Source of the DNA: Methanoculleus receptaculi
GTDB lineage: Archaea; Halobacteriota; Methanomicrobia; Methanomicrobiales; Methanoculleaceae
Direction of reading: 5' to 3'
NCBI RefSeq assembly: GCF_033472595.1
Contig: NZ_CP137642.1
Coordinates: forward strand, 1,116,001-1,180,000
DNA: 64,000 nt
Shown here one piece after another: positions 2,862 to 40,942 of the stretch. The number at the start of each line of letters is the position of its first letter. The first letter of the stretch is position 1. A program made the translations under genes and the position numbers. The notes beneath the pieces were generated by a model that made no database searches, was not told the DNA's origin, and was given only the letters and a program-made list of their open reading frames with translations.

Positions 2862-4760
2862 ATGGCCGAGAAATTCGATGTCAAACTTGAGGAAGGGAAG
2901 TATTATCTGCCCGATGCCAGTTACAAGGAACGGTCCTGGATAGGCGACTACAACCGTGCCTACCAGGAGTTCCTGGCTGACCCTGATGGGTTCTGGGACA
3001 GGATCGCCCGCGATCTCGAGTGGTTCCAGCCCTGGGACCGGGTGAAAGAGTGGAACTACCCTTACGCGAAGTGGTTCACCAACGCAAAACTCAACATCAC
3101 CCACAACTGCCTTGACCGCCACGTCAACAACCAGCGGCGCAACAAGGTCGCGATCATGTGGCGTGGGGAGACCGAGGGTGAGGAAGAGGTCTACACCTAC
3201 CGCCAGCTCCTGCAGGCCGTCAGCCAGTTCGCCAACGGCTTGAAGAGCCTCGGTGTCGGCAAGGGCGACCGCGTCTGCATCTACATGCCGGTCGTGCCCG
3301 AGCAGATCATCGCCATGCTCGCCTGCGCCCGCATCGGGGCGGTCCACACAGTTGTGTTTGGCGGGTTCGGTGTCAGCGCACTCAACCAGCGTATCGTCGG
3401 CACCGATGCGAAGGTTGTCGTCACCGCCGACTTCACATACCGGCGCGGCAAGGCAATCCCGCTCAAAAACATCGTCGGAGAGGCGGTCGTCAACGCCCCG
3501 AGCGTCGAACGGATCGTTGTCCTCCGCCGCGACCAGGAAAAACCCGTGGAACTCCACCCCGAGATGGAGGTTGACTTCTACGAACTGATGGAAGAATCAG
3601 ACCGGGAATGCCCGGCCGAAGTCATGGATGCAGAGGACCCCCTGTTCATCCTGTATACCAGCGGCACCACAGGCTTCCCGAAAGGCATCGTCCACACCTG
3701 CGGCGGCTACATGGTCGGGACATACTACACAACCAAATACGTCTTTGACATCAAGGACAACGACGTCTACTGGTGCACCGCTGACCCCGGCTGGATCACC
3801 GGCCACAGTTACGGCGTCTACGGTCCGCTCTTAAACGGCGCCACCTGCCTCATCACAGAGGTCACCCCCGACTACCCGACCAACGGCACCTACTGGGACA
3901 TCATCCAGGACTACGGCGTCACCATCTTCTATACCGCCCCGACCGCCATCAGGATGTTTATGCGCGTGGGCGAAGAGTGGCCCAACCGCTACAACCTCTC
4001 ATCGCTCCGGATCCTTGGATCGGTCGGCGAACCGCTCAACCCCGAGGCGTTTGAGTGGTTCTACCATGTCATCGGCAAAGCCCGCTGTCCGGTTGTGGAC
4101 ACCTGGTGGCAGACCGAGACCGGGATGCACATGGTCACCACGATGATCGGGGAGCCCATGCGCCCGGGGTTCGCCGGGAAACCGATCCCCGGTGTGGTTG
4201 CCGACGTTGTCGACCGCAACGGAAACCCGGTTCCGCCTGGCACCGGCGGCTTCCTCGTCGTCAAAGAGCCCTGGCCATCGATGATGCGAACGGTCTGGAA
4301 TGACGATGAGCGCTACCGGAAGTATTGGTACACCATCCCCGGATGCTACACCACCTCCGATCTGGCGGTGAAAGGCACCGACGGCTACATCATGATCCTT
4401 GGCCGGTCCGATGACCTGATAGTTGTCGCCGGGCACAACATTGGAACCGCCGAGGTCGAGAGTGCGCTCGTCTCCCATGACGCCGTGGCAGAGGCCGCTG
4501 TCATTGGAAAACCCGACCCGCTGAAGGGGAACATCATCAAGGCCTTCGTCATCCTCAAGAACGGTCGCGTGCCTGGCGATAAACTGAAGAACGATCTCGT
4601 CTACCATGTCCGGATGACGCTTGGACCCATTGCCATGCCCTCCGAGATCGAGTTCGTCGATTCGCTCCCCAAAACCCGGAGCGGGAAGATCATGAGGCGC
4701 GTCCTCAAGGCTCAGGAACTGGGCATGGATCCGGGTGACATATCGACCCTCGAAGAGTAG
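2862..4760 (+). CDS. acs: acetyl-CoA synthetase, AMP-forming
   Basis: A 632-residue cytosolic enzyme that activates acetate with ATP and CoA to acetyl-CoA, AMP and pyrophosphate. Family motifs are complete: the phosphate loop [11 protein letters not shown], the adenine motif DTWWQTETG, the hinge region LGRSDDLI followed by [12 protein letters not shown], and the C-terminal [12 protein letters not shown] whose lysine is catalytic. Length is typical. It has its own AT-rich promoter and is followed by the TBP gene after 42 bases with a separate TATA box. Many Methanomicrobiales need acetate as a carbon source; this enzyme would supply acetyl-CoA to biosynthesis, possibly also to the acetyl-CoA synthase operon at 28-36 kb (inference). 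Confidence 0.96.
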
Positions 4761-27406: not shown

Positions 27407-27586
27407 TGCATTAGAGGTTTGTCGGCTGTATGAATTTAGTTTGGGTGCGCGGGATGAAAGTGAAAATTCAGGTGTGAGGACGCCCGGGCGTGGCTTGGCT
27501 GGGCGGTGAGGGGGAATCTGCGGGAGGAAACCGTATCCGGGACTGACCCGAGATTCTTCAGAAGAATTTTACGAAAAACACCGGCA

Positions 27587-27851
27587 GAACGCCCCTTCCC
27601 CTGTTGCTCGCGTTTCCCGTTGAACGGTATTTATAGATCACCCCCACCTCCCGGCGCTTCCAGCGCCTCCTCCCGCCCCCTCCAGAGGGGGCGGGCAGTG
27701 TGGGGCGATTGGACCGGATACGGTGCCACGAAGCAGGAACGGGATCTCGGTGAGATCGTTCACACCGACGGCTAAGAGAGGGTCTCCCCCCGTGGCAGTG
27801 TGTCTATGGAGAATCGCCCCCCGCGGGGGAGGGGCTGACGGTGAGGGGGCG
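27587..27851. repeat. tandem intergenic repeat, unit 1 (265 bp)
   Basis: The first 122 bases (27587-27708) are almost identical to 27852-27973. They include a palindromic CGGCGCTTCCAGCGCC and a hairpin of CCGCCCCCTC with GAGGGGGCGG. The rest matches unit 2 and the copy at 41.6 kb more loosely: GGCGATTGGACCGGATACGG, GGAACGGGATCTCGGTGAG, then GGCAGTGTGTCTATGG. Confidence 0.85.
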
Positions 27852-28115
27852 GAACGCCCCTTCCCCTGTCGCTCGCGCTTCCCGTTGAACGGTATTTATA
27901 GATCACCCCCACCTCCCGGCGCTTCCAGCGCCTCCTCCCGCCCCCTCGAGAGGGGGCGGGCAGTGTGGGGCGAGTGACCCGGTGGCCGTGCACGGGGAGC
28001 GGGAACAGGATTCTTCGGGGGGTTTCATCGGGAACCAGGTGAAGGGATGCTCTTCCCTGGCAGTGCGTCGATGGGATATCACCCCCGTGGGGGAGGGGCT
28101 GACGGGGAGGGGATG
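27852..28115. repeat. tandem intergenic repeat, unit 2 (264 bp)
   Basis: Starts GGAACGCCCCTTCCCCTG like unit 1 (27587, shifted by one base at the G run), differs from it at only a few of the first 122 bases, then diverges but keeps the order of short motifs and ends with the GGGGGAGGGGCTGACGG block. A third partial copy begins at 28116 (about 28 bases). Confidence 0.85.
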
Positions 28116-28204
28116 GAACATCCCCTTTCCCTGTCGCTCGCGTCTCACCGAAGACGTCTTTCCATGCGAGCCGTCGACCAACCCCCGCCCCCGCGGGGGA
28201 ACAA

Positions 28205-28246: not shown

Positions 28247-30283
28247 ATGAATGAGATAGAGACGGACTCGCTTGATGCGGCTATAGAACGCGGCCGCACC
28301 AGACTCGATGCACGGATGCAGACCCTCTCCGGCGAACTTGGATACCCGGATACCGCATACGCCCTCCCCGTGACCTATGCCATCACCGGGACTGCCGTTC
28401 GTGATGCCGACGAAGCGCGTGAAGCATACCGGCAGTCCGGCAACAACCTTCTTGTCGCCTGCGAATGCCTGATGGCCGCTGCAGGCGCGGTTGGACCGCC
28501 GTACACGGGTTTCATCCCGGACACGGTTCTCAGGCAGCTCGGCTACACCCTTGTCGACGGGAGCGTCATAGGTCTTGGCCTCATCGTCGGGAAACCTGAG
28601 AGCCCCGATGCAGCCGCCGCCATCTGCCGGGAGATGCAGGAGAAGTACCTCCTCACCTTCCTTGCCGGCGGCGTGGTGGAGGCTCTCTCCGGTGCCGGTG
28701 TCCGGCTGGGACTCGAGTATCGGCTGGTGCCGCTCGGGCCGGAGAGCGCTCGTGGGATCCATTTCGCCGACATCCTTGCCAGGATTGCCATGATGTTTGG
28801 CGGGGTGAAGCCCGGCGATGCCCCGGCCCTCCTCTCTTACGCCGCAGAGAGGGCAAAGGCGTTTGTTGTAGTCTTTCCCGGTCTCACAGATGAGGAGATA
28901 GCGTTTGTCGACTCACTCCGGGTTCTCGGGATGCCTATCCTGACTCTCGACGGCGGTTACCGGGGCGGGGAGTGGATCCCGGTCACCTCCGGTGAAGCCG
29001 TGCAGACCGGCATGGAGCTCCGCGGGATACGGGTCACGGTTACCGCGATCCCGATCCCGATGGCCTGCTCCCCTGCGTTTGAGGGAAAGAGCATCCGCAA
29101 AGAGGAGATGTACGTTGAGTTCGGAGGCGGCCGGACACCTGCTTTCGAACTTCTCCGGACGCGACCGCGCCAGGAGGTCGAGGACGGGAATGTAACCGTC
29201 ATCGGACCGGAGGTTGACGACGTCACGGCAGGCTCCGCCCTCCCGCTTGCGATCCTGGTGGATGTTGCCGGCAAAAGGATGAAGCCCGACTACGAACCCG
29301 TGCTTGAGAGGCGGATCCATACCTTCATCAACTACGGCGAAGGCTCCTGGCACGTCGCCCAGCGCGACCTCGTCTGGGTCAGGCTCTCGAAGGATGCGGT
29401 GGCAAAAGGTGTCAGGATCCGCGACATCGGGACACTGCTTGCCCACAAACTCAAGATGGAGTTCCCGGATCACATCGAAGCGATACAGGTGACGCTTGTA
29501 ACCGAGAGAGCGAAGGTCGAGGAGATGCTCCCGCAGGCGCGTGAGATCTACAGGAGACGCGACGAACGGATTGCCGGCATGAAGGATGACGATGTGGAGG
29601 TCTTCTACTCCTGCACCCTGTGCCAGACGTTTGCTCCAAACCACGTCTGCATCATTACCCCGGAACGCCCGGCGCTATGCGGCGCGATCACATGGCTCGA
29701 TGCCAGGATTGCCCACGAGATCACGCCCTCCGGGGCAAACCAGCCGGTTGAAAAGGGGGGAGCGGTCGACGCTCTCCGCGGCGAGTTTGCAGGTGTGAAC
29801 CGGTTTGTGAAGAAGGCATCTCACGGCGAGACCGACCGGGTCTCGCTCTACAGCATAATAGACTACCCGATGACCGCCTGCGGGTGTTTTGAGTGCATCG
29901 CGGCTATCGTCCCCGAGGTGAACGGCATCCTGATCGTGAACCGTGACCACCCCGGGGAGACGCCGCTCGGTATGACCTTCTCGACCCTTGCCGGGACAAT
30001 CGGCGGCGGTGCGCAGACCCCGGGGTTCCTCGGGATAGCAAAGAACTACATCCTGAGCGAGAGGTTCCTGCAGGCCGAGGGCGGTATCGCGCGGGTGGTC
30101 TGGATGCCGACCTCCTTAAAGGAGGAGCTCGGCGAGCGGCTGCGGGAGAGGCTTGCAGCAGCGGGGATCCCGGAGATGTATGAGAAGATCGCGGACGAGG
30201 TCACGGCGCCGACGATCGAAGACCTGATCGCGTTCCTCGAGCGTGTCGAGCACCCGGCGCTCGCTATGAAACCGCTGATCTGA
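28247..30283 (+). CDS. acsB: acetyl-CoA synthase, bacterial-type full-length
   Basis: A 678-residue enzyme that makes or cleaves acetyl-CoA from a methyl group on a corrinoid protein, CO and CoA. All A-cluster ligands are present: C456, C459, C468 and C478 for the 4Fe-4S cubane, and C545-G546-C547 bridging the two nickel ions. These intervals (3, 9, 10, 67) equal those in the Moorella enzyme. The N-terminal CO-channel domain of bacterial AcsB is also present (ELGYPDTAYALPV, MMFGGVKPGDAP), whereas the usual archaeal CdhC is about 200 residues shorter. It is the first gene of a six-gene operon that lacks CO dehydrogenase. Symbol cdhC is a synonym in archaeal annotation. Confidence 0.95.
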   Translation: MNEIETDSLDAAIERGRTRLDARMQTLSGELGYPDTAYALPVTYAITGTAVRDADEAREAYRQSGNNLLVACECLMAAAGAVGPPYTGFIPDTVLRQLGYTLVDGSVIGLGLIVGKPESPDAAAAICREMQEKYLLTFLAGGVVEALSGAGVRLGLEYRLVPLGPESARGIHFADILARIAMMFGGVKPGDAPALLSYAAERAKAFVVVFPGLTDEEIAFVDSLRVLGMPILTLDGGYRGGEWIPVTSGEAVQTGMELRGIRVTVTAIPIPMACSPAFEGKSIRKEEMYVEFGGGRTPAFELLRTRPRQEVEDGNVTVIGPEVDDVTAGSALPLAILVDVAGKRMKPDYEPVLERRIHTFINYGEGSWHVAQRDLVWVRLSKDAVAKGVRIRDIGTLLAHKLKMEFPDHIEAIQVTLVTERAKVEEMLPQAREIYRRRDERIAGMKDDDVEVFYSCTLCQTFAPNHVCIITPERPALCGAITWLDARIAHEITPSGANQPVEKGGAVDALRGEFAGVNRFVKKASHGETDRVSLYSIIDYPMTACGCFECIAAIVPEVNGILIVNRDHPGETPLGMTFSTLAGTIGGGAQTPGFLGIAKNYILSERFLQAEGGIARVVWMPTSLKEELGERLRERLAAAGIPEMYEKIADEVTAPTIEDLIAFLERVEHPALAMKPLI

Positions 30284-30297
30284 GGAGGGAGTTATCT

Positions 30298-31209
30298 GTG
30301 AGTGAAAACAGTTCTGATAAACCAGCCATCCGGGAGGTGCGCCTCGGCGCAACACGCGCTGAGGGCGGAACCCGGGAGGTATCCTACGTTATAGGCGGCG
30401 AACAGGGTCTGCCGTTCTGCGGCAACGACCCTGGCCGACGCCTTGTGGCACTAGAGATCTGCGACGATCCGGCGATCTGGCCGCCGGTCGTCCGCAACTA
30501 CGTGGGCGACCTTGCAAACAACCCCGAGGATTGGGCAGAGGCAGCGGAGCGCAGATACGGTGCAGACCTTGTGCGGTTGAACTTCACCAGCGCAAAAAAA
30601 CGAGGGTTTGATGCGTTTGCCGAGATCGCCTCGACAACAGAACGCGTGCTTGCGGCAACGACCAGACCCCTGATAATCGAGGGCAGCAACGACCCTCAGG
30701 TTGACAGCGAGGTCTTCCGCCGCTGCGGTGAGGCGGGTGAGGGCGAGCGTCTCCTCCTCGGGACAGCGGAGGCCGACAGATACCGGAGCGTTGCCGCGGC
30801 GGCGCTGGCATACGGGCATCTGGTGATCGCACAGTCGCCCATCGATGTCAACCTGGCAAAACAGCTAAACATCCTTCTCCGGGAGACGGGCGTGCCGGAG
30901 GACCGGATCGTGATCGACCCCTACACAGGGGCGCTCGGCTACGGGTTTGAGTACTCCTACTCGGTGATGGAGCGGATACGTCTTGCCGCGCTCGCCGGCG
31001 ACGGCGACCTGGCGATGCCCATGATCAGCGCTCCCACCGACACCCTCACCATCCGGGAGGTGCGGGAGGCCGTACCGGAGGAGCAGGATGCCATGGCGGT
31101 TGCATGGGAATTCTACACCGCATACTCCGCCTTTGTCGCCGGGGCTTCGATCGTCTCTGTCCGCCATCCGCTGACGGTGGAAAGGCTCAAAAAGGTGCTG
31201 GAGGCCTGA
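30298..31209 (+). CDS. acsD: corrinoid iron-sulfur protein, small (delta) subunit
   Basis: A 303-residue TIM-barrel subunit that forms, with AcsC/CdhE, the corrinoid iron-sulfur protein (CoFeSP) carrying the methyl group to and from acetyl-CoA synthase. Features include REVSYVIGGEQGLPF near the start, VRLNFTSAKKRGFDAFAEIA and RIVIDPYTGALGYGFEYSYS. It is shorter than archaeal CdhD and near the bacterial AcsD length. The GTG at 30298 is preceded by GGAGGG at a good distance. It follows acsB by 14 bases and precedes acsC by 6. Confidence 0.94.
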   Translation: MSENSSDKPAIREVRLGATRAEGGTREVSYVIGGEQGLPFCGNDPGRRLVALEICDDPAIWPPVVRNYVGDLANNPEDWAEAAERRYGADLVRLNFTSAKKRGFDAFAEIASTTERVLAATTRPLIIEGSNDPQVDSEVFRRCGEAGEGERLLLGTAEADRYRSVAAAALAYGHLVIAQSPIDVNLAKQLNILLRETGVPEDRIVIDPYTGALGYGFEYSYSVMERIRLAALAGDGDLAMPMISAPTDTLTIREVREAVPEEQDAMAVAWEFYTAYSAFVAGASIVSVRHPLTVERLKKVLEA

Positions 31210-31215
31210 AAACCG

Positions 31216-32550
31216 ATGGCGATGAAAGCGCTTGATATCTATAAGCACCTGCCGAAGACGAACTGCAAGAAGTGCGGTTACCCGACCTGTCTGGCCTTCG
31301 CCATGAAACTTGCCGTCGGAAAGGCGGATATAGAGGCCTGCCCCGACATAGACCCTGGGGCGAAGGCGCTTCTTGGAGGAGTGACCAGACCGCCGGTGAG
31401 GGCGGTCACGATCGGCGCAGGCGAGCGATCGGTCACGGTCGGCGAGGAGTTTGTCATGTTCCGGCACGAGAAGACCTTCTACCACCCGCCCGGGATCATG
31501 GTGGAGGTCTCCGACACCTGGCCGGATGATGAGGTTCGATCCGTGGTGGCGGAGGTGAGGGAGGCGGTCGTCGAACGTGTGGGTCAGGACCTCGTCCTCA
31601 ACGGTGTGGCGGTGAGAAACGAGAGCGGGGACGCCGATCGGTTCGCAGAGACCGTGTACCTTGCCGGCGGCGGAACCGGTCTTCCGCTCGTGCTGATATC
31701 TGACGACCTTCCAGGTTTTGAGGCGGCCCTTGCGGTAGCAGGACAGTACCGGCCGCTGATCCACGCGGCGACCGCCGATAACTGGGAGCCGCTGGCCGCG
31801 CTTGCTAAACAGTATGGCTCCCCTCTTGTCGTCCGGGCTGGGACGCTGGCCGACCTCGCCGCGCTTGCCGGAAACTGCGCCGGCGCGGGGGTCGCCGACC
31901 TGCTGCTCGACCCCGCACAGGGGTCGCTCCAGGGTTATATCGCCACCGCGACCGCGATCCGGAGGAGCGCCATCGAGCGGACGGAACCCGCGCTCGGCTA
32001 CCCCATCTACCTGGACGCAGGAACATTCAAGGATACCGATGCAGCAGTCGCTGCGGGCATCCTCAAGTATGCGGGGGTCATCGTCACCCCGCGGCTATCC
32101 CGCGCATCGAGGGAGGCGGCGCTCACCCTGCGTCAGAACACCTACACCGACCCGCAGCACCCCATCCAGGTGGCACCCGGGGTCTACCCGGTCAACGATC
32201 CCGGACGGGAGGCGCCCGTCCTCCTCACGGTGAACTTCTCGCTCACCTACTTCACGATCCTTGGCTACCTCGAGGCTTCCCGGATGCCCTGCCACCTCCT
32301 GATCGTGGATACGGAAGGGCTCTCGGTTCTAACATCGGTCGCCGGCGGGAAACTGACGGAGACGATAGTGGCCGATGCTCTCAAGAAGTTCGGCGTCGCC
32401 GACCTGGTTGACCACCGTCTCCTCATAATCCCCGGTTACGCCGCTCCGCTCACCGGGAAGATCGAGGATGCAACCGGCTGGAGGGTGATGGTCGGACCCC
32501 GCGATGCAGCCGATCTCCCTGAATACCTTGAGAAGGAGTGGAAGACCTGA
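31216..32550 (+). CDS. acsC: corrinoid iron-sulfur protein, large (gamma) subunit
   Basis: A 444-residue protein. The N-terminal domain carries one low-potential 4Fe-4S cluster: C17, C20, C25 and C42 in TNCKKCGYPTCLAF ... IEACP. A TIM barrel follows, and the C-terminal B12-binding domain holds the cobamide that is methylated (VADLVDHRLLIIPGYAAPLTGKIEDA). Archaeal synonym is cdhE. ATG 31216 (MAMKAL) or 31222 may be used. Its stop overlaps the start of acsV by one base (TGATG). Confidence 0.95.
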   Translation: MAMKALDIYKHLPKTNCKKCGYPTCLAFAMKLAVGKADIEACPDIDPGAKALLGGVTRPPVRAVTIGAGERSVTVGEEFVMFRHEKTFYHPPGIMVEVSDTWPDDEVRSVVAEVREAVVERVGQDLVLNGVAVRNESGDADRFAETVYLAGGGTGLPLVLISDDLPGFEAALAVAGQYRPLIHAATADNWEPLAALAKQYGSPLVVRAGTLADLAALAGNCAGAGVADLLLDPAQGSLQGYIATATAIRRSAIERTEPALGYPIYLDAGTFKDTDAAVAAGILKYAGVIVTPRLSRASREAALTLRQNTYTDPQHPIQVAPGVYPVNDPGREAPVLLTVNFSLTYFTILGYLEASRMPCHLLIVDTEGLSVLTSVAGGKLTETIVADALKKFGVADLVDHRLLIIPGYAAPLTGKIEDATGWRVMVGPRDAADLPEYLEKEWKT

Positions 32551-34475
32551 TGCCGACGGTGACGTTCCTCCCCGGCTACCGGAAGGTGACCGTTCCCGAG
32601 GGGACGAGCCTTCTTGATGCGGCACGCGCGGCCGGTCTTGCGATGAACGTGGTCTGCGGCGGGCAGGGTAAGTGCGGAAAGTGTCTGGTCTTCATAAAGA
32701 GCGGGAATGTCTCGTTTGAACGCGAAAAATTCCGCAAATTCTTCTCCGACCCAGAGATCGCGCGGGGTGCCTGCCTTGCCTGCCAGGCGACCGTTCTCGG
32801 TGACGTCCTGGTGGATGTCCCGGAAGGATCGCTCATCCAGGAGCAGAAGATCCTGGTGGAGATCCCTGGCAGGGAGGAGATCCCGCTCAACCCTGCCGTC
32901 AGGAAGTATGAGGTCTACCTCAGTCCGCCGTCGCTCGATGACACCACCCCTGACCTCACCAGGCTGCTGGAAGGGGTTGAAGCGGTGGGCGGACCGCCTC
33001 CAAACCGTGTCTACGCGCCGCTTGGTGTCCTCCGCTACCTCCCGCAGGTGCTCCGGCGGAGTGACTGGCACGTGACCGCCACGGTCGCGCTCGTGCCCGG
33101 CGGGTATCGACTGAGCAGTGTGGACAAGGGCGACACCACCGGCCGGGTATACGGCGCGGCGGTCGACCTCGGAACGACGACGGTCGTGGTCTACCTCTGG
33201 AGCCTGGTCGATGGCCAGATCCTCTCCACGGCGTCCAACTACAACCGGCAGATCTCCTGCGGCGAGGATATCCTCTCAAGGGTGAACTTCTCCAGGAAGG
33301 GCGGTCTTGCACGGCTGCAGCACCTCGCAGCGGAGAGCATAAATGAGGCGCTGAAGAGCGCCGCAGATGCCGCCGGGATAGATCTTGAAGAGGTCTTTGA
33401 GGTGATGGTTGCCGGAAACACCGTGATGACACACCTCTTTCTCGGGATCGACCCCGGCTACATGATCGCCGAGCCCTACATACCGGTCGTGCAGCGGATG
33501 CTCTCGACGGCCGCCCGCCGGGTCGGCATCGCGACACATGAGAACACCGGCATCTACACCTTCCCCGCGGTCTCGAACTTCATCGGCGGCGATGTAATCG
33601 CCGATATCCTGGCCACCGGGATGACGGAACGCGAGGAGGTCACCCTCCTGATAGATATAGGCACTAACTTCGAGGCCGTGCTCGGCAACCGTGACTGGAT
33701 GCTCTCCTGCTCGGGTGCTGCCGGCCCCGCCCTCGAGGGTGGAGAGGTGCTGTTTGGTATGCGCGCAAACCCCGGCGCGATCGAGAGCATCCAGATCGAT
33801 CCCGCTACGCTCACACCAACCTACACGACCATCAACAGCATAGCAGCCCCCCGGGGCATCTGCGGTTCGGGCCTCGTCGATCTGGTTGCGGAACTGCTCC
33901 GTGCCTGTGTCATCGACCGAACAGGCGGAATCAACCTTGAGATTGATCACCCCCGGATCCGGAAAGGAAGGTATGCCCCGGAGTTTGTTGTGGCCTGGAA
34001 GGAGGAGACACAGATAGGGAAGGATATCGTCATAACCGAGAACGACATCAAGAACCTCATCATGAGCAAGGCCGCGATCCACGGCGCCTGCATGACGCTG
34101 CTCGATGCGGCGGGGCTGACGGCTCGCGATATCGAGAGGGTCTGCCTCTCGGGGGCGTTCGGGAACTACATCAACAAGGAGAACGCCATCACGATCGGGT
34201 TGATCCCTGATGTGCCCCTCGAGCGTGTGGAGAATATCGGGAACGGTGCGATCACGGGTGCAAACATCGCCCTGGTCAACCGCAAACGGCGTAAGGAACT
34301 CGACGGCCTTGCAAGGAAGATCACATACATCGAACTGAATGCCGACCCCTCCTTCATGGACCGCTACACATCGAGCTGTTTCCTGCCGCACACCGACCTT
34401 TCGCTATTCCCGCGCGTGCAGCAGATGCTTGAGGCGTGCAGGCTGGGGCAGGGGGTGGGCTCACGGCAGGGATGA
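32550..34475 (+). CDS. acsV: ATP-dependent reductive activator of corrinoid proteins
   Basis: A 641-residue protein. An N-terminal 2Fe-2S ferredoxin domain uses C36, C42, C45 and C75 or C78. A long linker and a C-terminal ASKHA ATPase domain follow (VYGAAVDLGTTTVVVYLW, LIDIGTNFEAVLGN, LSGAFGNYINKENAITIG). Proteins of this type (AcsV/RACo) reduce cobalt that has been oxidised to Co(II), returning CoFeSP to the active Co(I) state. They belong to bacterial acs clusters; methanogens more often use RamA-type activators. Start at ATG 32550, overlapping the acsC stop. Confidence 0.9.
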   Translation: MPTVTFLPGYRKVTVPEGTSLLDAARAAGLAMNVVCGGQGKCGKCLVFIKSGNVSFEREKFRKFFSDPEIARGACLACQATVLGDVLVDVPEGSLIQEQKILVEIPGREEIPLNPAVRKYEVYLSPPSLDDTTPDLTRLLEGVEAVGGPPPNRVYAPLGVLRYLPQVLRRSDWHVTATVALVPGGYRLSSVDKGDTTGRVYGAAVDLGTTTVVVYLWSLVDGQILSTASNYNRQISCGEDILSRVNFSRKGGLARLQHLAAESINEALKSAADAAGIDLEEVFEVMVAGNTVMTHLFLGIDPGYMIAEPYIPVVQRMLSTAARRVGIATHENTGIYTFPAVSNFIGGDVIADILATGMTEREEVTLLIDIGTNFEAVLGNRDWMLSCSGAAGPALEGGEVLFGMRANPGAIESIQIDPATLTPTYTTINSIAAPRGICGSGLVDLVAELLRACVIDRTGGINLEIDHPRIRKGRYAPEFVVAWKEETQIGKDIVITENDIKNLIMSKAAIHGACMTLLDAAGLTARDIERVCLSGAFGNYINKENAITIGLIPDVPLERVENIGNGAITGANIALVNRKRRKELDGLARKITYIELNADPSFMDRYTSSCFLPHTDLSLFPRVQQMLEACRLGQGVGSRQG

Positions 34476-35497
34476 TACCCTCCCCAGAACTCAATGCAAC
34501 GGGTGTCGGGGGGCTGCCCCACCGTGACCCGGAGGAGGCCTGCCGGGCAGTGCTTGAAATCTTTCCCCGTATCCCCTATGTGCCCACCCTGCCGAACCGG
34601 GGGCTCCTGGAGGGGATAGTCTTTGCAGACTCCGAGCACCTCCCCGGCGGCGTGATCAGGGACGGCAGACTCGTTCTCGACCGGAGCATCGATCCCTCTG
34701 AGGCGATGGAGCGGATCCTGCTCGACTACCTTGAGGGGAACGCAGAGCCCTACGCGGTCGGCAGGGACTACGGTTCGGGGTTTCATGCGATGATGACCCG
34801 CGACCTCTCGGACGCACTGATAGTCAAGTGTCAGGTGACGGGTCCGGTCACGTTCGGGATGCAGGTTGTGGATGAGGCGCGCCGGCCCATCCTCTACGAC
34901 CCGGAGTACGCCGACCTGCTTGGAAAACTTCTGGGTCTGCGGGCGCGGTGGTGTGAGATCGCGATGCGCGAGCGGATGATGGCGCGTGAGACGCTGGTGG
35001 TCCTGAGCGAGCCCTACCTTGCCTCGCTCGGGTCAGCGGTCGTGCCGGTGGATGCGGGGGTCGCAGCGTCTGCGTTCCAGGATATCGCCTCTATCCTGGA
35101 TGGAGGGCTCGGGATCCACTGCTGCGCGAACACCGACTGGAGTTTTGTCCTGGGTCTCCGGCCGGCCCTGGTCTCGATCGATGCCTGGACGTATGCACGC
35201 GAGTTTCTGCTCTACCTCGATGAGGTTGCGGCATACATGGAGGATGGCGGGGTTGTTGCCTGGGGGATCGTCCCGGCCGATTACACCGTCTTCGCCGCGG
35301 AGAGTCAGGACTCGTTCTTCTCGAGGTTCCAGGCGATCCGCGCCCGTGCAGCCGGGATCATCGATCCCGACCTCTTTGACCGGCAGTCGATGATCACACC
35401 GACCTGCGGGATCCGGACCGCCGGCGAGCGTGAGGCTGTCGCGATCATGGAGGCGGCCGCCTCGCTCTCACGCCGCCTGCGGGGTGAGGGGGCATGA
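34472..35497 (+). CDS. core MetE-like zinc methyltransferase (MesB/MesC-like)
   Basis: A 341-residue protein with the UROD/MetE TIM-barrel fold and only the catalytic half of cobalamin-independent methionine synthase. It opens ATGVGGLPHRDPEEACRAVL, a hallmark of core-MetE proteins. Probable zinc ligands are H216 and C218 (GIHCCANTDW), D237 in VSIDAW at the place of the MetE glutamate, and C312 in TPTCGIRTAG. Folate-independent methionine synthases of the MesB and MesC families lie in genomes with CoFeSP and are predicted to take its methyl group. The ATG at 34472 overlaps the acsV stop (ATGA), so it is firmly part of the operon. A methylcobamide:thiol transferase is the main alternative. Confidence 0.75.
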   Translation: MIPSPELNATGVGGLPHRDPEEACRAVLEIFPRIPYVPTLPNRGLLEGIVFADSEHLPGGVIRDGRLVLDRSIDPSEAMERILLDYLEGNAEPYAVGRDYGSGFHAMMTRDLSDALIVKCQVTGPVTFGMQVVDEARRPILYDPEYADLLGKLLGLRARWCEIAMRERMMARETLVVLSEPYLASLGSAVVPVDAGVAASAFQDIASILDGGLGIHCCANTDWSFVLGLRPALVSIDAWTYAREFLLYLDEVAAYMEDGGVVAWGIVPADYTVFAAESQDSFFSRFQAIRARAAGIIDPDLFDRQSMITPTCGIRTAGEREAVAIMEAAASLSRRLRGEGA

Positions 35498-36249
35498 CCC
35501 GGCCGTGCACCGTTGTCATATCCGGGAAAGGCGGGACAGGGAAGACCACGATCTCGGCGCTCCTGGTTGATGCCCTGGTCAGGGCAGGCGAACGTCCGAT
35601 CCTTGCCGTGGATGCCGATCCAAACGCGAACCTTCACGAGGCTCTCGGCATCACGCTCAATGAGACGCTGGGGAGCATGCGCGAGGAGGCCTTCACCCGC
35701 TCCATCCCGCCCGGCATGGACAGGACGGGCTACATCAGGTACCGGTTCCGCCGGGCGCTGGCGGAGGCGGAGGGCTACGACCTTCTTGCCATGGGACGGC
35801 CTGAGGGGTCGGGATGCTACTGTTTCCCAAACGCGCTCTTAAAGGAGTGCATCGAAACGCTCGAACGCGACTACCGGTACGTCATCGTGGACTCCGAGGC
35901 GGGTATGGAGCACATATCCCGAGGGACCATCAGGAGACCGGATATCCTGCTGATAGCAAGCGATCCTGGAGCCCGCGGGATCCGGACCGCCGGCCGCATC
36001 CGCGACCTTGCGGAGTCGCTCGGTCTTGAGCCCGAGAAGATATTCCTGGTCGTCAACCGTGACCACGGGGATGCTGTTATCGAGAGCGATCTCCCGCTTA
36101 TCGCCCGGATCCCGGAGGACCCGGCTGTCGATGAGGCAGACCTTGCGGGAACGCCGATCGCGGAGATACCTGACGAGAGTCCGGCGCGGGTGGCGGTTCG
36201 TGACCTTGCCGCGCGGGTGGTCGAGACCTGTGCCAGGCGGCGTGGGTAA
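35494..36249 (+). CDS. acsF: nickel-insertion ATPase (CooC/AcsF type)
   Basis: A 251-residue MinD/CooC-family ATPase that matures nickel sites of CO dehydrogenase or acetyl-CoA synthase. The deviant P-loop is G11-KGGTGK17, with switch region VDADPNANLHEALG. The metal-binding CxC is C108-Y-C110 in GSGCYCFPN. With no CO dehydrogenase in this operon, its likely client is AcsB. It overlaps the MetE-like gene by four bases and ends the operon. A poorly conserved 180-base gap separates it from purB. Confidence 0.9.
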   Translation: MTRPCTVVISGKGGTGKTTISALLVDALVRAGERPILAVDADPNANLHEALGITLNETLGSMREEAFTRSIPPGMDRTGYIRYRFRRALAEAEGYDLLAMGRPEGSGCYCFPNALLKECIETLERDYRYVIVDSEAGMEHISRGTIRRPDILLIASDPGARGIRTAGRIRDLAESLGLEPEKIFLVVNRDHGDAVIESDLPLIARIPEDPAVDEADLAGTPIAEIPDESPARVAVRDLAARVVETCARRRG

Positions 36250-36431: not shown

Positions 36432-37772
36432 ATGGCAATCCATCCCATCGATTACCGCTACGGCACGCCGGAGATGCGTGCCGTCTGGAGCGAGGAGAAC
36501 CGTTTTCGGGCGATCGTCACGGTCGAGGTGGCGCTGGCCCGTGCCGAGGCGGCGCACGGGATGATCCCGCCCGCGGATGCAGAGACGATCGCGGCCTGCG
36601 CGGGGCGGGCGCGGCCGGAGCGGGCAAAGGAGATCGAGGCCGAGATCAACCACGATATGATGGCGATCGTCAAGACGATTGCCGAGGTCTGCGGTGATGC
36701 CGGCCGCTGGATCCACTACGGAGCGACCTCAAACGATATCCTGGATACTGCAACCGCGCTCCAGATCCGCGAGAGCCTATCACTGATCGAGGAGAAACTT
36801 CAGCGGCTCCTCTCGGTCCTCCTTGACCGGAGCGAGGAGACGAAGACCCTTGTCTGCGCCGGACGCACCCACGGCCAGATCGGTGTCCCGACGACATACG
36901 GTCTCCGGTTTGCGATCTGGGCTGCCGAGGTGGGGCGTCACATCGAGCGGCTCCGCCAGATGCGCCCCCGGGTTGTCGTCGGGCAGCTCACGGGAGCGGT
37001 GGGGACGCAGGCGGCGCTGGGTGATGCCGGTATAGAGATCCAGGAGACTATGATGGAGATCCTGGGGATCGGATCGGTGGACGTCTCGAACCAGGTTGTC
37101 TCGCGCGATCGCTACGCGGAGTACTTCATGCTCCTTGCAAACGTCGCGACAACGCTTGACAAGATCGGGCTTGAGATCCGGCTGATGCAGCGCTCCGAGA
37201 TCGGTGAACTCGCGGAGCCGTTCGGGAAGAGGCAGGTGGGCTCAAGCACGATGCCGCACAAGCGAAACCCTATCAGGAGCGAGCAGGTCTGCGGGCTTGC
37301 CCGGATCGTTCGATCCGCGGTCGAACCGGCGCTGTTAAACAACGTCCTCTGGGACGAACGCGACCTGACGAACTCCGCTCCCGAACGGGTGATCTTCCCC
37401 GAGGCGTCGGTGCTGACCGACCACATACTTAAAGTGATGATCGAGGTGCTGAAAGGGCTCGAGATCGACCATGAGAGGATCAGGAGGAACCTGATGCTGC
37501 TCCGCGGCGTGAACCTTGCCGAGTCGGTGATGATCGAACTGACAAAACGCGGCATGAACCGGCAGGAGGCTCATGAGGTTATGAGGACGGCGAGCATGGA
37601 GGCTCTTGCCCGTGACCGCGACCTTGGCCAGGTGCTGGCCGGTCGGCCGGAGGTGACGAGGTTCATCAGCCCCGGTGAACTGGACGCTCTCCTCGACCCG
37701 AATGCCTATACCGGGACGGCGGTACGGCAGGTGGACCGGTTGATCGAGAAACTCCGGCCGCTCTGCTCGTGA
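36432..37772 (+). CDS. purB: adenylosuccinate lyase
   Basis: A 446-residue homotetrameric lyase acting twice in purine synthesis (SAICAR to AICAR, adenylosuccinate to AMP). The superfamily signature GSSTMPHKRNP is exact. The active-site segments HYGATSNDILDTA and CAGRTHGQIGVPTTYG, carrying the catalytic histidine, are present. It has its own upstream region containing a CCTTTTTAACACGG run that could be box A about 30 bases before the ATG. Confidence 0.96.
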   Translation: MAIHPIDYRYGTPEMRAVWSEENRFRAIVTVEVALARAEAAHGMIPPADAETIAACAGRARPERAKEIEAEINHDMMAIVKTIAEVCGDAGRWIHYGATSNDILDTATALQIRESLSLIEEKLQRLLSVLLDRSEETKTLVCAGRTHGQIGVPTTYGLRFAIWAAEVGRHIERLRQMRPRVVVGQLTGAVGTQAALGDAGIEIQETMMEILGIGSVDVSNQVVSRDRYAEYFMLLANVATTLDKIGLEIRLMQRSEIGELAEPFGKRQVGSSTMPHKRNPIRSEQVCGLARIVRSAVEPALLNNVLWDERDLTNSAPERVIFPEASVLTDHILKVMIEVLKGLEIDHERIRRNLMLLRGVNLAESVMIELTKRGMNRQEAHEVMRTASMEALARDRDLGQVLAGRPEVTRFISPGELDALLDPNAYTGTAVRQVDRLIEKLRPLCS

Positions 37773-39748: not shown

Positions 39749-40942
39749 ATGTATCCTTCAAGAGAGCAAATCACGCTCCTCATGAAGCACATCCATGCCT
39801 GTCGGTTTGTGTACAACCATTCTCTGGAACAGAAGATCAAAGCATACGAGCAAGATGGCCAAAAACTCTCTTGCTTCGACTTGAACAATCGTCTTCCTGC
39901 CCTCAAGGAAGAATATCCGTGGCTCAAGGAAGTCAACTCGCAGTCGCTCCAGAGTGCAAACAAGAACCTCGACAACGCTTTCACCCGGTTCTTCAGGGAG
40001 AAGAAGGAATTCCCCCGGTTCAAGTCAAAGAAGAACCCTGTACGGTCTTTTCAGGTACCACAACATTACCATGTGAATTTTGACCAGAGGACGATCAAAT
40101 TCCCTAAGATCGGTGAGGTTAAGACCGTCTTCCACCGAATCTTCACTGGGAAGATGAAGTATGCCACGGTGTCTGTAACATCGACGGGAAAATGGTTTGT
40201 CAGCATCCTTGTCGACGACGAGGAACCTGAGCCTAAACCTGTACCGTTCACATCTGACACGACGGTCGGGATTGATGTTGGCTTAACCGACTTCGCAACC
40301 TTCTCCACTGGAGAGAAGATTGAGAACCCCCGATACCTGAAGACCTCCCTCCAGCGGTTGAAAGTGTTGCAAAGGCGAGTGTCACGGAAGAAGAAGGGGT
40401 CAAAGAACCAAGAGAAGGCGATCCGGAAACTTGCCCGGTGCCATGAAAAAGTCGCCAACCAAAGAAACGATTTCCTGCACAAAATCTCTTTTCGAGTTGT
40501 GAGCGAGAACCAAGCTATTGCAGTGGAGTCGTTGAATGTTGGCGGGATGATGAAGAACCATTGTCTGGCACAGGGGATTGGAGATGTATCGTGGAGCACG
40601 TTCTTTACGATGCTGGATTACAAATGTCGAAAGTATGGGAAGACGCTCCTGAAGATCGGGCGGTTCGATCCATCCTCAAAGATATGTAATAATTGTGGAT
40701 ATCTCGAGCGGGATCTTGCCCTCTCTGAGAGGGAATGGGTCTGCCCGGTCTGTGATACTCATCACGACCGCGATATCAATGCGGCGATCAATATCAAGAA
40801 GTTCGCCCTGCAAGAACAGAATCTTGTCGGGGTATCAGGTGCGGGACGCACCGTTGAGCCTGTGGACTCGCTCCCGGTGGGGAGGAGGATGAAGCAGGAA
40901 GCCACGCCCGAGAGGCGCGTGGTAGTTCACCTGTCTGCATGA
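39749..40942 (+). CDS. tnpB: TnpB RNA-guided nuclease of an IS605/IS607-like element
   Basis: A 397-residue RuvC-like nuclease, the Cas12 ancestor, guided by an RNA from its own 3' end. The catalytic acids are D176 (VGIDVGLTDFA), E260 (AVESLNVGGM) and D340/D342 (HHDRDINAAINI). The zinc finger is CNNCGYL ... WVCPVC. No tnpA is nearby. Upstream codons from GTG 39725 read M-L-Q-A-stop-K-Y-R and then join the ATG at 39749; full-length TnpB usually starts MLQAYKYR, so a TAA replaces a Tyr codon. Translation may restart at 39749 with loss of eight residues. Confidence 0.9.
   Translation: MYPSREQITLLMKHIHACRFVYNHSLEQKIKAYEQDGQKLSCFDLNNRLPALKEEYPWLKEVNSQSLQSANKNLDNAFTRFFREKKEFPRFKSKKNPVRSFQVPQHYHVNFDQRTIKFPKIGEVKTVFHRIFTGKMKYATVSVTSTGKWFVSILVDDEEPEPKPVPFTSDTTVGIDVGLTDFATFSTGEKIENPRYLKTSLQRLKVLQRRVSRKKKGSKNQEKAIRKLARCHEKVANQRNDFLHKISFRVVSENQAIAVESLNVGGMMKNHCLAQGIGDVSWSTFFTMLDYKCRKYGKTLLKIGRFDPSSKICNNCGYLERDLALSEREWVCPVCDTHHDRDINAAINIKKFALQEQNLVGVSGAGRTVEPVDSLPVGRRMKQEATPERRVVVHLSA
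40840..40930 (+). ncRNA. putative omegaRNA 3' part at the tnpB right end
   Basis: The last codons of tnpB coincide with a GGTGGGGAGGAGGATGAAGC stretch and a hairpin CCACGC-CCGAGAGGC-GCGTGG followed by TAGTTCAC. In characterised IS605 elements this region is the scaffold of the guide RNA, and the flanking bases (CTGTCTGCATGATACACGGG here) are the guide. Assignment is by position and resemblance. Confidence 0.5.

Follow-up and report, generated by a model that had tools for sequence, protein, structure and literature searches.

An acetyl-CoA synthase operon without a CO dehydrogenase gene in Methanoculleus receptaculi and other Methanomicrobiales, with a proposed role in methionine synthesis

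The operon considered here lies at positions 28247-36249 of a 64,000-nucleotide stretch of DNA (the window) from the archaeon Methanoculleus receptaculi (contig NZ_CP137642.1, positions 1,116,001 to 1,180,000). It encodes an acetyl-CoA synthase (ACS), AcsB, together with a corrinoid iron-sulphur protein (CFeSP), two accessory proteins and a short relative of the methionine synthase MetE. Similar sets of proteins are known from other systems. The bacterium Dehalococcoides mccartyi has AcsB, AcsC, AcsD and a core MetE, lacks both CO dehydrogenase (CODH) and AcsE, and takes the methyl group of its methionine from acetate (PMC7005905, PMC7857596). Its core methionine synthase, of the MesB type, is proposed to receive this methyl group from CFeSP (PMC7005905, PMC7857596). 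The Methanoculleus operon shares these components and absences with the incomplete, acetate-fed Wood-Ljungdahl route of D. mccartyi. Unlike in D. mccartyi, the genes for the core MetE, AcsV and CooC join acsB in one operon, and they do so in a methanogenic archaeon that also has another methionine synthase, MesA. Labelling shows the flux in D. mccartyi only, whereas the Methanoculleus operon is known from sequence.

Two further systems are related. The bacterial CODH/ACS of Moorella and Carboxydothermus has the same A1-A2-A3 arrangement of AcsB, the same short AcsD and the accessory genes acsV and cooC. The operon differs from it in lacking CODH and AcsE, in an A1 helical bundle that is about 15 residues shorter, and in a tyrosine in place of Ile146. 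The archaeal acetyl-CoA decarbonylase/synthase (ACDS; CdhABCDE) has homologous beta, gamma and delta subunits. Its CdhC, a form without A1, binds to CdhA and CdhB, unlike the AcsB of the operon, whose home genome has no CdhA.

Partial Codh/Acs gene sets were seen earlier in Methanoculleus by Nagoya et al. (PMC8621161). New here are the genome-wide absence of CODH, the order-wide presence of the operon, the strict, CODH-independent linkage of MesB to AcsB, and the peculiarities of this AcsB. On balance, the operon appears to encode an acetyl-CoA decarbonylase that works without CODH and provides the methyl group of methionine.

The operon and its home genome

Six consecutive open reading frames (ORFs) on the + strand, acsB-acsD-acsC-acsV-mesB-cooC, make up the operon. 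The first three genes are separated by gaps of 14 and 6 nt; from there on, successive genes overlap by 13, 1 and 4 nt. A preliminary description of this DNA, made from its letters alone, had named a coupled run of six genes beginning with a full-length acsB with its A-cluster. ORF spacing and family matches bear this out.

The first gene, acsB (28247-30283), encodes a full-length acetyl-CoA synthase/decarbonylase of 678 aa with A1, A2 and A3 domains. It scores 904 bits on NF040764 (cut-off 800), matches the Carboxydothermus and Moorella ACS structures down to E 1e-191, and has all six cysteines of the A-cluster (C456, C459, C468, C478, C545 and C547). The next two genes encode CFeSP. AcsD (30298-31209; PF03599; 348 bits on NF003376, cut-off 280) has the CFeSP small subunit 4djd_D as its closest solved structure and is of the short, bacterial-like form. 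AcsC (31216-32550; 444 aa; PF04060 and PF03599; 530 bits on NF003195, cut-off 306) is the large, corrinoid-carrying subunit with an N-terminal Fe-S domain. Overlapping acsC by 13 nt, acsV (32538-34475) encodes a RACo-type ATP-dependent corrinoid re-activator of 645 aa. All four RACo domains are present (Fer2 and the RACo linker, middle and C-terminal domains), and the protein scores 562 bits on NF040756, under the cut-off of 800. The last gene, cooC or acsF (35494-36249), overlaps mesB by 4 nt and encodes a 251-aa P-loop nickel-insertion ATPase of the CbiA/MinD family, closest to the CooC structure 3kje (E 4e-19).

The fifth gene, mesB (34475-35497), matches no Pfam or NCBIfam model. An AlphaFold model of its 340-aa product, built from 29 aligned sequences, has a mean pLDDT of 94.9, and its top Foldseek matches are the methionine synthases 4l6h, 4ztx and 1xdj. 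The predicted fold is that of the MetE catalytic domain without the folate-binding half. Four zinc ligands, H215, C217, D236 and C311, are invariant in the 29 sequences. Either HCEC or HCDC ligands are reported for MesB (PMC7857596), a family for which that paper also quotes thresholds of 130-173 bits to DET0516. On the modelled fold and the HCDC set, the protein is classed here as MesB-type. Translation probably begins at the ATG at 34475, which overlaps the acsV stop, and not at the alternative GTG at 34436.

The home genome (G000) is a single contig of 1.98 Mb and is 99.76% complete; its closest named relative is Methanoculleus sp. Yes49-05, with an AcsB identity of 94%. It has one CdhC-domain gene, the acsB of the operon. 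Neither CooS/AcsA (TIGR01702) nor CdhA (TIGR00314) has a match above the curated cut-off in this genome. The prismane family is represented by one gene only, for a hybrid-cluster protein, and a frameshift splits it (G000:C1:871574-873150; L019:3575-5175). No AcsE was found in the genome either, its pterin-binding matches being one weak match and one protein resembling dihydropteroate synthase (272 aa, with the motif MGVINCSPESFY, beside folD and glyA). The absence of CODH and AcsE, which the preliminary description had reported for the 64 kb, thus holds genome-wide by family-model searches. The home genome lacks the CODH subunit that a CODH/ACS complex requires, and likewise the bacterial-type AcsE.

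At L223:611-2256, folD adjoins a dihydropteroate-synthase-like gene, and upstream of them lies the end of what seems to be glyA. This grouping suggests some tetrahydrofolate metabolism in this methanogen.

MesB and CODH across the order

The survey of the Methanomicrobiales covered 232 genomes, many of them drafts, in which AcsB was classed as full-length by the length of its open frame. The 135 genomes that are at least 90% complete are termed near-complete. Full-length AcsB is found in 61 of these 135, and MesB is found in every one of the 61. Two near-complete genomes only (G094 and G187) have MesB without full-length AcsB, and both carry a fragmentary acsB. Genomes with archaeal ACDS only yielded no MesB of this type. 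The operon's protein shares the short MetE-type form, the HCDC ligands and the link to CFeSP with the MesB family as described by Price et al. (2021); it differs in that, in the Methanomicrobiales, MesB follows the full-length AcsB operon and not CFeSP in general. MesA is near universal in the order (216/232 genomes).

Every one of the five Methanomicrobiales families that have full-length AcsB shows the same order of the six genes, always with acsB in first place. Complete sets of six are present at 55 of 80 named loci; the 25 others are truncated by the end of their contig. The operon is also collinear in 20 further genomes picked across four families, and in the home family. The preliminary description had treated the operon as a feature of one methanogen; the operon is real, but that scope was too narrow. 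In a survey of 40 genomes of the family, a CdhC-domain gene occurs in 16, of the AcsB type in 15 and of the short archaeal form in 1, and many Methanoculleus genomes lack the operon.

The ratio of nonsynonymous to synonymous substitution rates (dN/dS) is 0.08-0.24 for every operon gene in five unsaturated genome pairs, including the CODH-free pair G027/G025. Purifying selection thus acts on each of the six, so the operon is not in decay.

CODH does not follow AcsB in this way. Some CODH is present in 51 of the 61 near-complete genomes with AcsB, and archaeal CdhA in 31 of them, where the operon should consequently not be needed for ordinary acetyl-CoA synthesis. The remaining ten have neither CooS nor CdhA (G000, G025, G027, G037, G097, G133, G137, G140, G188 and G221). 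Incomplete assembly may account for a few of these ten but not for all: G000 is assembled in one contig, and completeness is 98-99% for G027, G037 and G221. When only near-complete genomes without CdhA are considered, CooS occurs in 20 of 30 with AcsB versus 39 of 64 without (Fisher p 0.65; the test treats genomes as independent, which they are not, and scores as positive G031, in which a contig end truncates CooS). The invariant partner of AcsB is MesB, not CODH.

CooS was considered as a hidden partner; it is rejected for the home genome, from which it is absent, and unsupported elsewhere, where it shows no association with AcsB. The best match of Methanoculleus CooS is 7b7q, at 677 bits, compared with 251-266 bits for ACS-bound CODHs. 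The one operon-proximal CooS tested has 6b6v as its nearest structure, again a CODH solved without ACS.

To look beyond the order, 394 genomes of the phylum were sampled; outside the Methanomicrobiales, AcsB passes the cut-off of the full-length model in one family only, where it is fused to CODH. In G250 and G232 (L219:6554-10774; L220), a single ORF of 1378-1407 aa joins CODH to full-length AcsB, and acsD and acsC come next in line.

The active site and A1 domain of AcsB

The six A-cluster cysteines are invariant in all 101 distinct AcsBs of the operon. The alcove, with residues as defined in PMC11321310, consists in the home AcsB of G99, Y100, V103, F184 and F462. Four of the corresponding positions (G145, V149, F229 and F512 in Moorella numbering) are invariant across the same 101 sequences. 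The fifth, Ile146 in Moorella, is tyrosine in 100 of 100. Changes at one alcove residue are known to alter CO binding: replacing F229 by alanine lowers the CO affinity of ACS thirty-fold, and replacing it by tryptophan raises it 80-fold (PMC11321310).

PDB matches and residue tallies show that the A1 domain is present, although PF18537 scores 30.6 bits, just below its cut-off of 32.2. In all 101 operon AcsBs, the helical bundle of A1 lacks about 15 residues that are present in the CODH-linked AcsBs used for comparison, which are few: those of Carboxydothermus, the archaeal fusion and Acetoanaerobium noterae. The first two have a complete A1 bundle and Ile146, and the third has a complete bundle and a valine at that position. 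A gate change from Met to Leu and a latch change from Trp to Gly had been candidates for operon-specific features; they were dropped, as the same residues are found in the CODH-linked AcsB of A. noterae. By this comparison the alcove tyrosine and the A1 deletion appear to be the only peculiarities left. AcsB was also modelled with AlphaFold, but the result was of middling quality (pLDDT 77.9, pTM 0.54) and was left unused.

In acetogens, A1 is the only part of ACS that contacts CODH (PMC11474084), so its trimming here could reflect lost docking to CODH. A1 has also been modelled in contact with CFeSP (PMC12289521). The preliminary description had pointed out that AcsB retains the N-terminal domain by which bacterial AcsB contacts CODH. 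The domain is indeed kept, with the trimmed bundle, and both the trimming and the CFeSP contact mean that its retention is no argument for a CODH partner.

According to a cryo-EM study, no methanogen and no modern archaeal ACS has the A1 domain (PMC11474084). Numerous Methanomicrobiales genomes are counter-examples. A natural ACS that occurs without CODH and has one alcove residue substituted is also a test case for the control of CO by the alcove.

Function, alternatives and origin

In the proposed route, acetate would be activated by an acetyl-CoA synthetase and the resulting acetyl-CoA bound by AcsB. The A-cluster would cleave it to CoA, CO and a methyl group, which would pass to Co(I) of CFeSP (AcsC/AcsD). 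MesB would then transfer the methyl group to homocysteine, while AcsV would re-reduce oxidised corrinoid and CooC would load nickel into AcsB. With no CODH in the home genome, CO would leave the cell; in relatives, a CooS with its own, separate gene might oxidise it. The acetyl-CoA might come from an AMP-forming acetyl-CoA synthetase whose gene lies in the window but outside the operon (2943-4760, + strand; TIGR02188 858 bits, cut-off 725; Pfam ACAS_N and AMP-binding). Methanoculleus isolates require acetate as a carbon source (PMC10654671). A likeness to Dehalococcoides, already suggested in the preliminary description, fits the absence of CODH and AcsE and the co-occurrence of a MesB-type gene with full-length AcsB. 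The direction of flux cannot be read from sequence; like the methyl acceptor and the fate of CO, it is inferred.

A second AMP-forming acetyl-CoA synthetase gene of the home genome (C1:181118-182948) is split into two frames. This gene and the split hybrid-cluster gene may be real pseudogenes or products of sequencing indels.

Several points weigh against the proposed route. The main puzzle is MesA, encoded elsewhere in the home genome, through which the operon is not the sole route to methionine. A hydrogenotroph should also not be short of methyl groups, and the benefit of a route from acetate is accordingly unclear. CO released within a methanogen could inhibit hydrogenases. AcsB alone can also run towards synthesis if given CO, ACS in solution binds CO tightly (Kd 0.74 uM; PMC12289521), and in three genomes (G156, G211 and G219) CooS lies within 3 kb downstream of the operon.

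These last points favour a scheme of CO scavenging, in which acetyl-CoA is built by AcsB from free CO, produced by a separate CooS or by neighbouring organisms, and the methyl group of methyl-tetrahydromethanopterin (methyl-H4MPT), with MesB doing no more than drawing on CFeSP. The CO affinity of ACS is high even with its tunnel blocked (PMC12289521), and most AcsB genomes have some CODH. The ten CODH-free genomes, the one-contig home genome among them, speak against scavenging, as do the failure of CooS to track AcsB where MesB is invariant, the lack of an AcsE-like enzyme to charge a bacterial-type CFeSP, and the archaeal CODH gene already present in 31 genomes. Scavenging is unlikely, though it deserves some weight. 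Methyl-H4MPT, plentiful in methanogens, might instead charge CFeSP to feed MesB as a second methionine synthase, leaving AcsB a minor or regulatory part. Archaeal CFeSP is thought to swap methyl groups directly with the pterin, which suits this scheme, and so does the prediction of Price et al. that MesB draws its methyl group from CFeSP (PMC7857596). It leaves unexplained why acsB leads every operon, is constrained like the other genes and keeps an invariant A-cluster, and why AcsD has the short form that in bacteria partners AcsE; the scheme is rather improbable.

The methyl group of CFeSP could also go to an acceptor other than homocysteine, with MesB a methyltransferase of different specificity. 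That MesB matches no family model and that MesA already makes methionine would agree with this, but structural comparison places it nearest to methionine synthases, and its zinc ligands form the HCDC set named for MesB (PMC7857596), which makes another acceptor very unlikely. Finally, the operon might be a decaying remnant of a complete CODH/ACS after the "partial deletion" described for Methanoculleus (PMC8621161), a genus in which incomplete gene sets are on record and many genomes lack the operon altogether. This was rejected on dN/dS and order-wide conservation: six genes under purifying selection, a constant gene order in five families, invariant active sites and no CODH gene in any extant operon leave decay hardly credible.

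The reading of the operon as a CODH-independent decarbonylase can be carried further. It may represent an ancient, order-wide archaeal enzyme without a CODH partner, re-tuned by the A1 trim and the alcove tyrosine to expel CO and donating its methyl group through CFeSP to MesB, which would give methanogens a way of making methionine from acetate outside the methanogenesis pathway. This fuller version is tentative, and somewhat more doubtful than credible.

Surveys that count the operon genes as a CODH/ACS complex can misread the metabolism of an organism. A landfill study, for instance, took a CODH/ACS gene set more than half complete as a sign of acetoclastic metabolism, and so called Methanoregulaceae and some Methanoculleus metagenome-assembled genomes acetoclastic; for Methanoculleus it noted a conflict with isolate physiology (PMC10654671). 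Acetoclastic or carbon-fixing calls made by such a rule can be misled by the operon. The operon also turns labelling from acetate to methionine into a directly testable question in cultured methanogens.

On the AcsB tree, sequences largely group by family with strong support, with one family (f2) nested in another (f6). This pattern fits vertical descent within the order, accompanied by repeated loss. An acquisition from bacteria had been suggested in the preliminary description. A recent transfer finds no support in the family-grouped tree. Any transfer from bacteria would have to be older than much of the radiation of the order, and such an early event is compatible with the tree but not established by it. 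Searches of genome contigs with AcsB returned archaeal loci alone, so that no bacterial donor could be placed, and those named to order or below are all Methanomicrobiales. The plasmid search gave one bacterial comparator, and the search of viral contigs found nothing.

Around the operon, a direct repeat with a 265-nt unit in two to three copies fills the intergenic region at window positions 27583-28142, just upstream of acsB. An Rfam scan around the operon found no riboswitch, and no match in the repeats either. A gene for a CorA-family metal transporter lies near the acs operon in many Methanoculleus genomes (L042:6573-7616, similar in 13 loci), and is not in the home window. Downstream, and outside the module, is the adenylosuccinate lyase gene purB (36432-37772, + strand; TIGR00928 525 bits), which follows the operon in many relatives though not all. 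Putative IS200/IS605 OrfB (TnpB-like) ORFs with a C-x2-C zinc ribbon were recognised by eye at window positions 39749-40942 and at L019:1895-3271.

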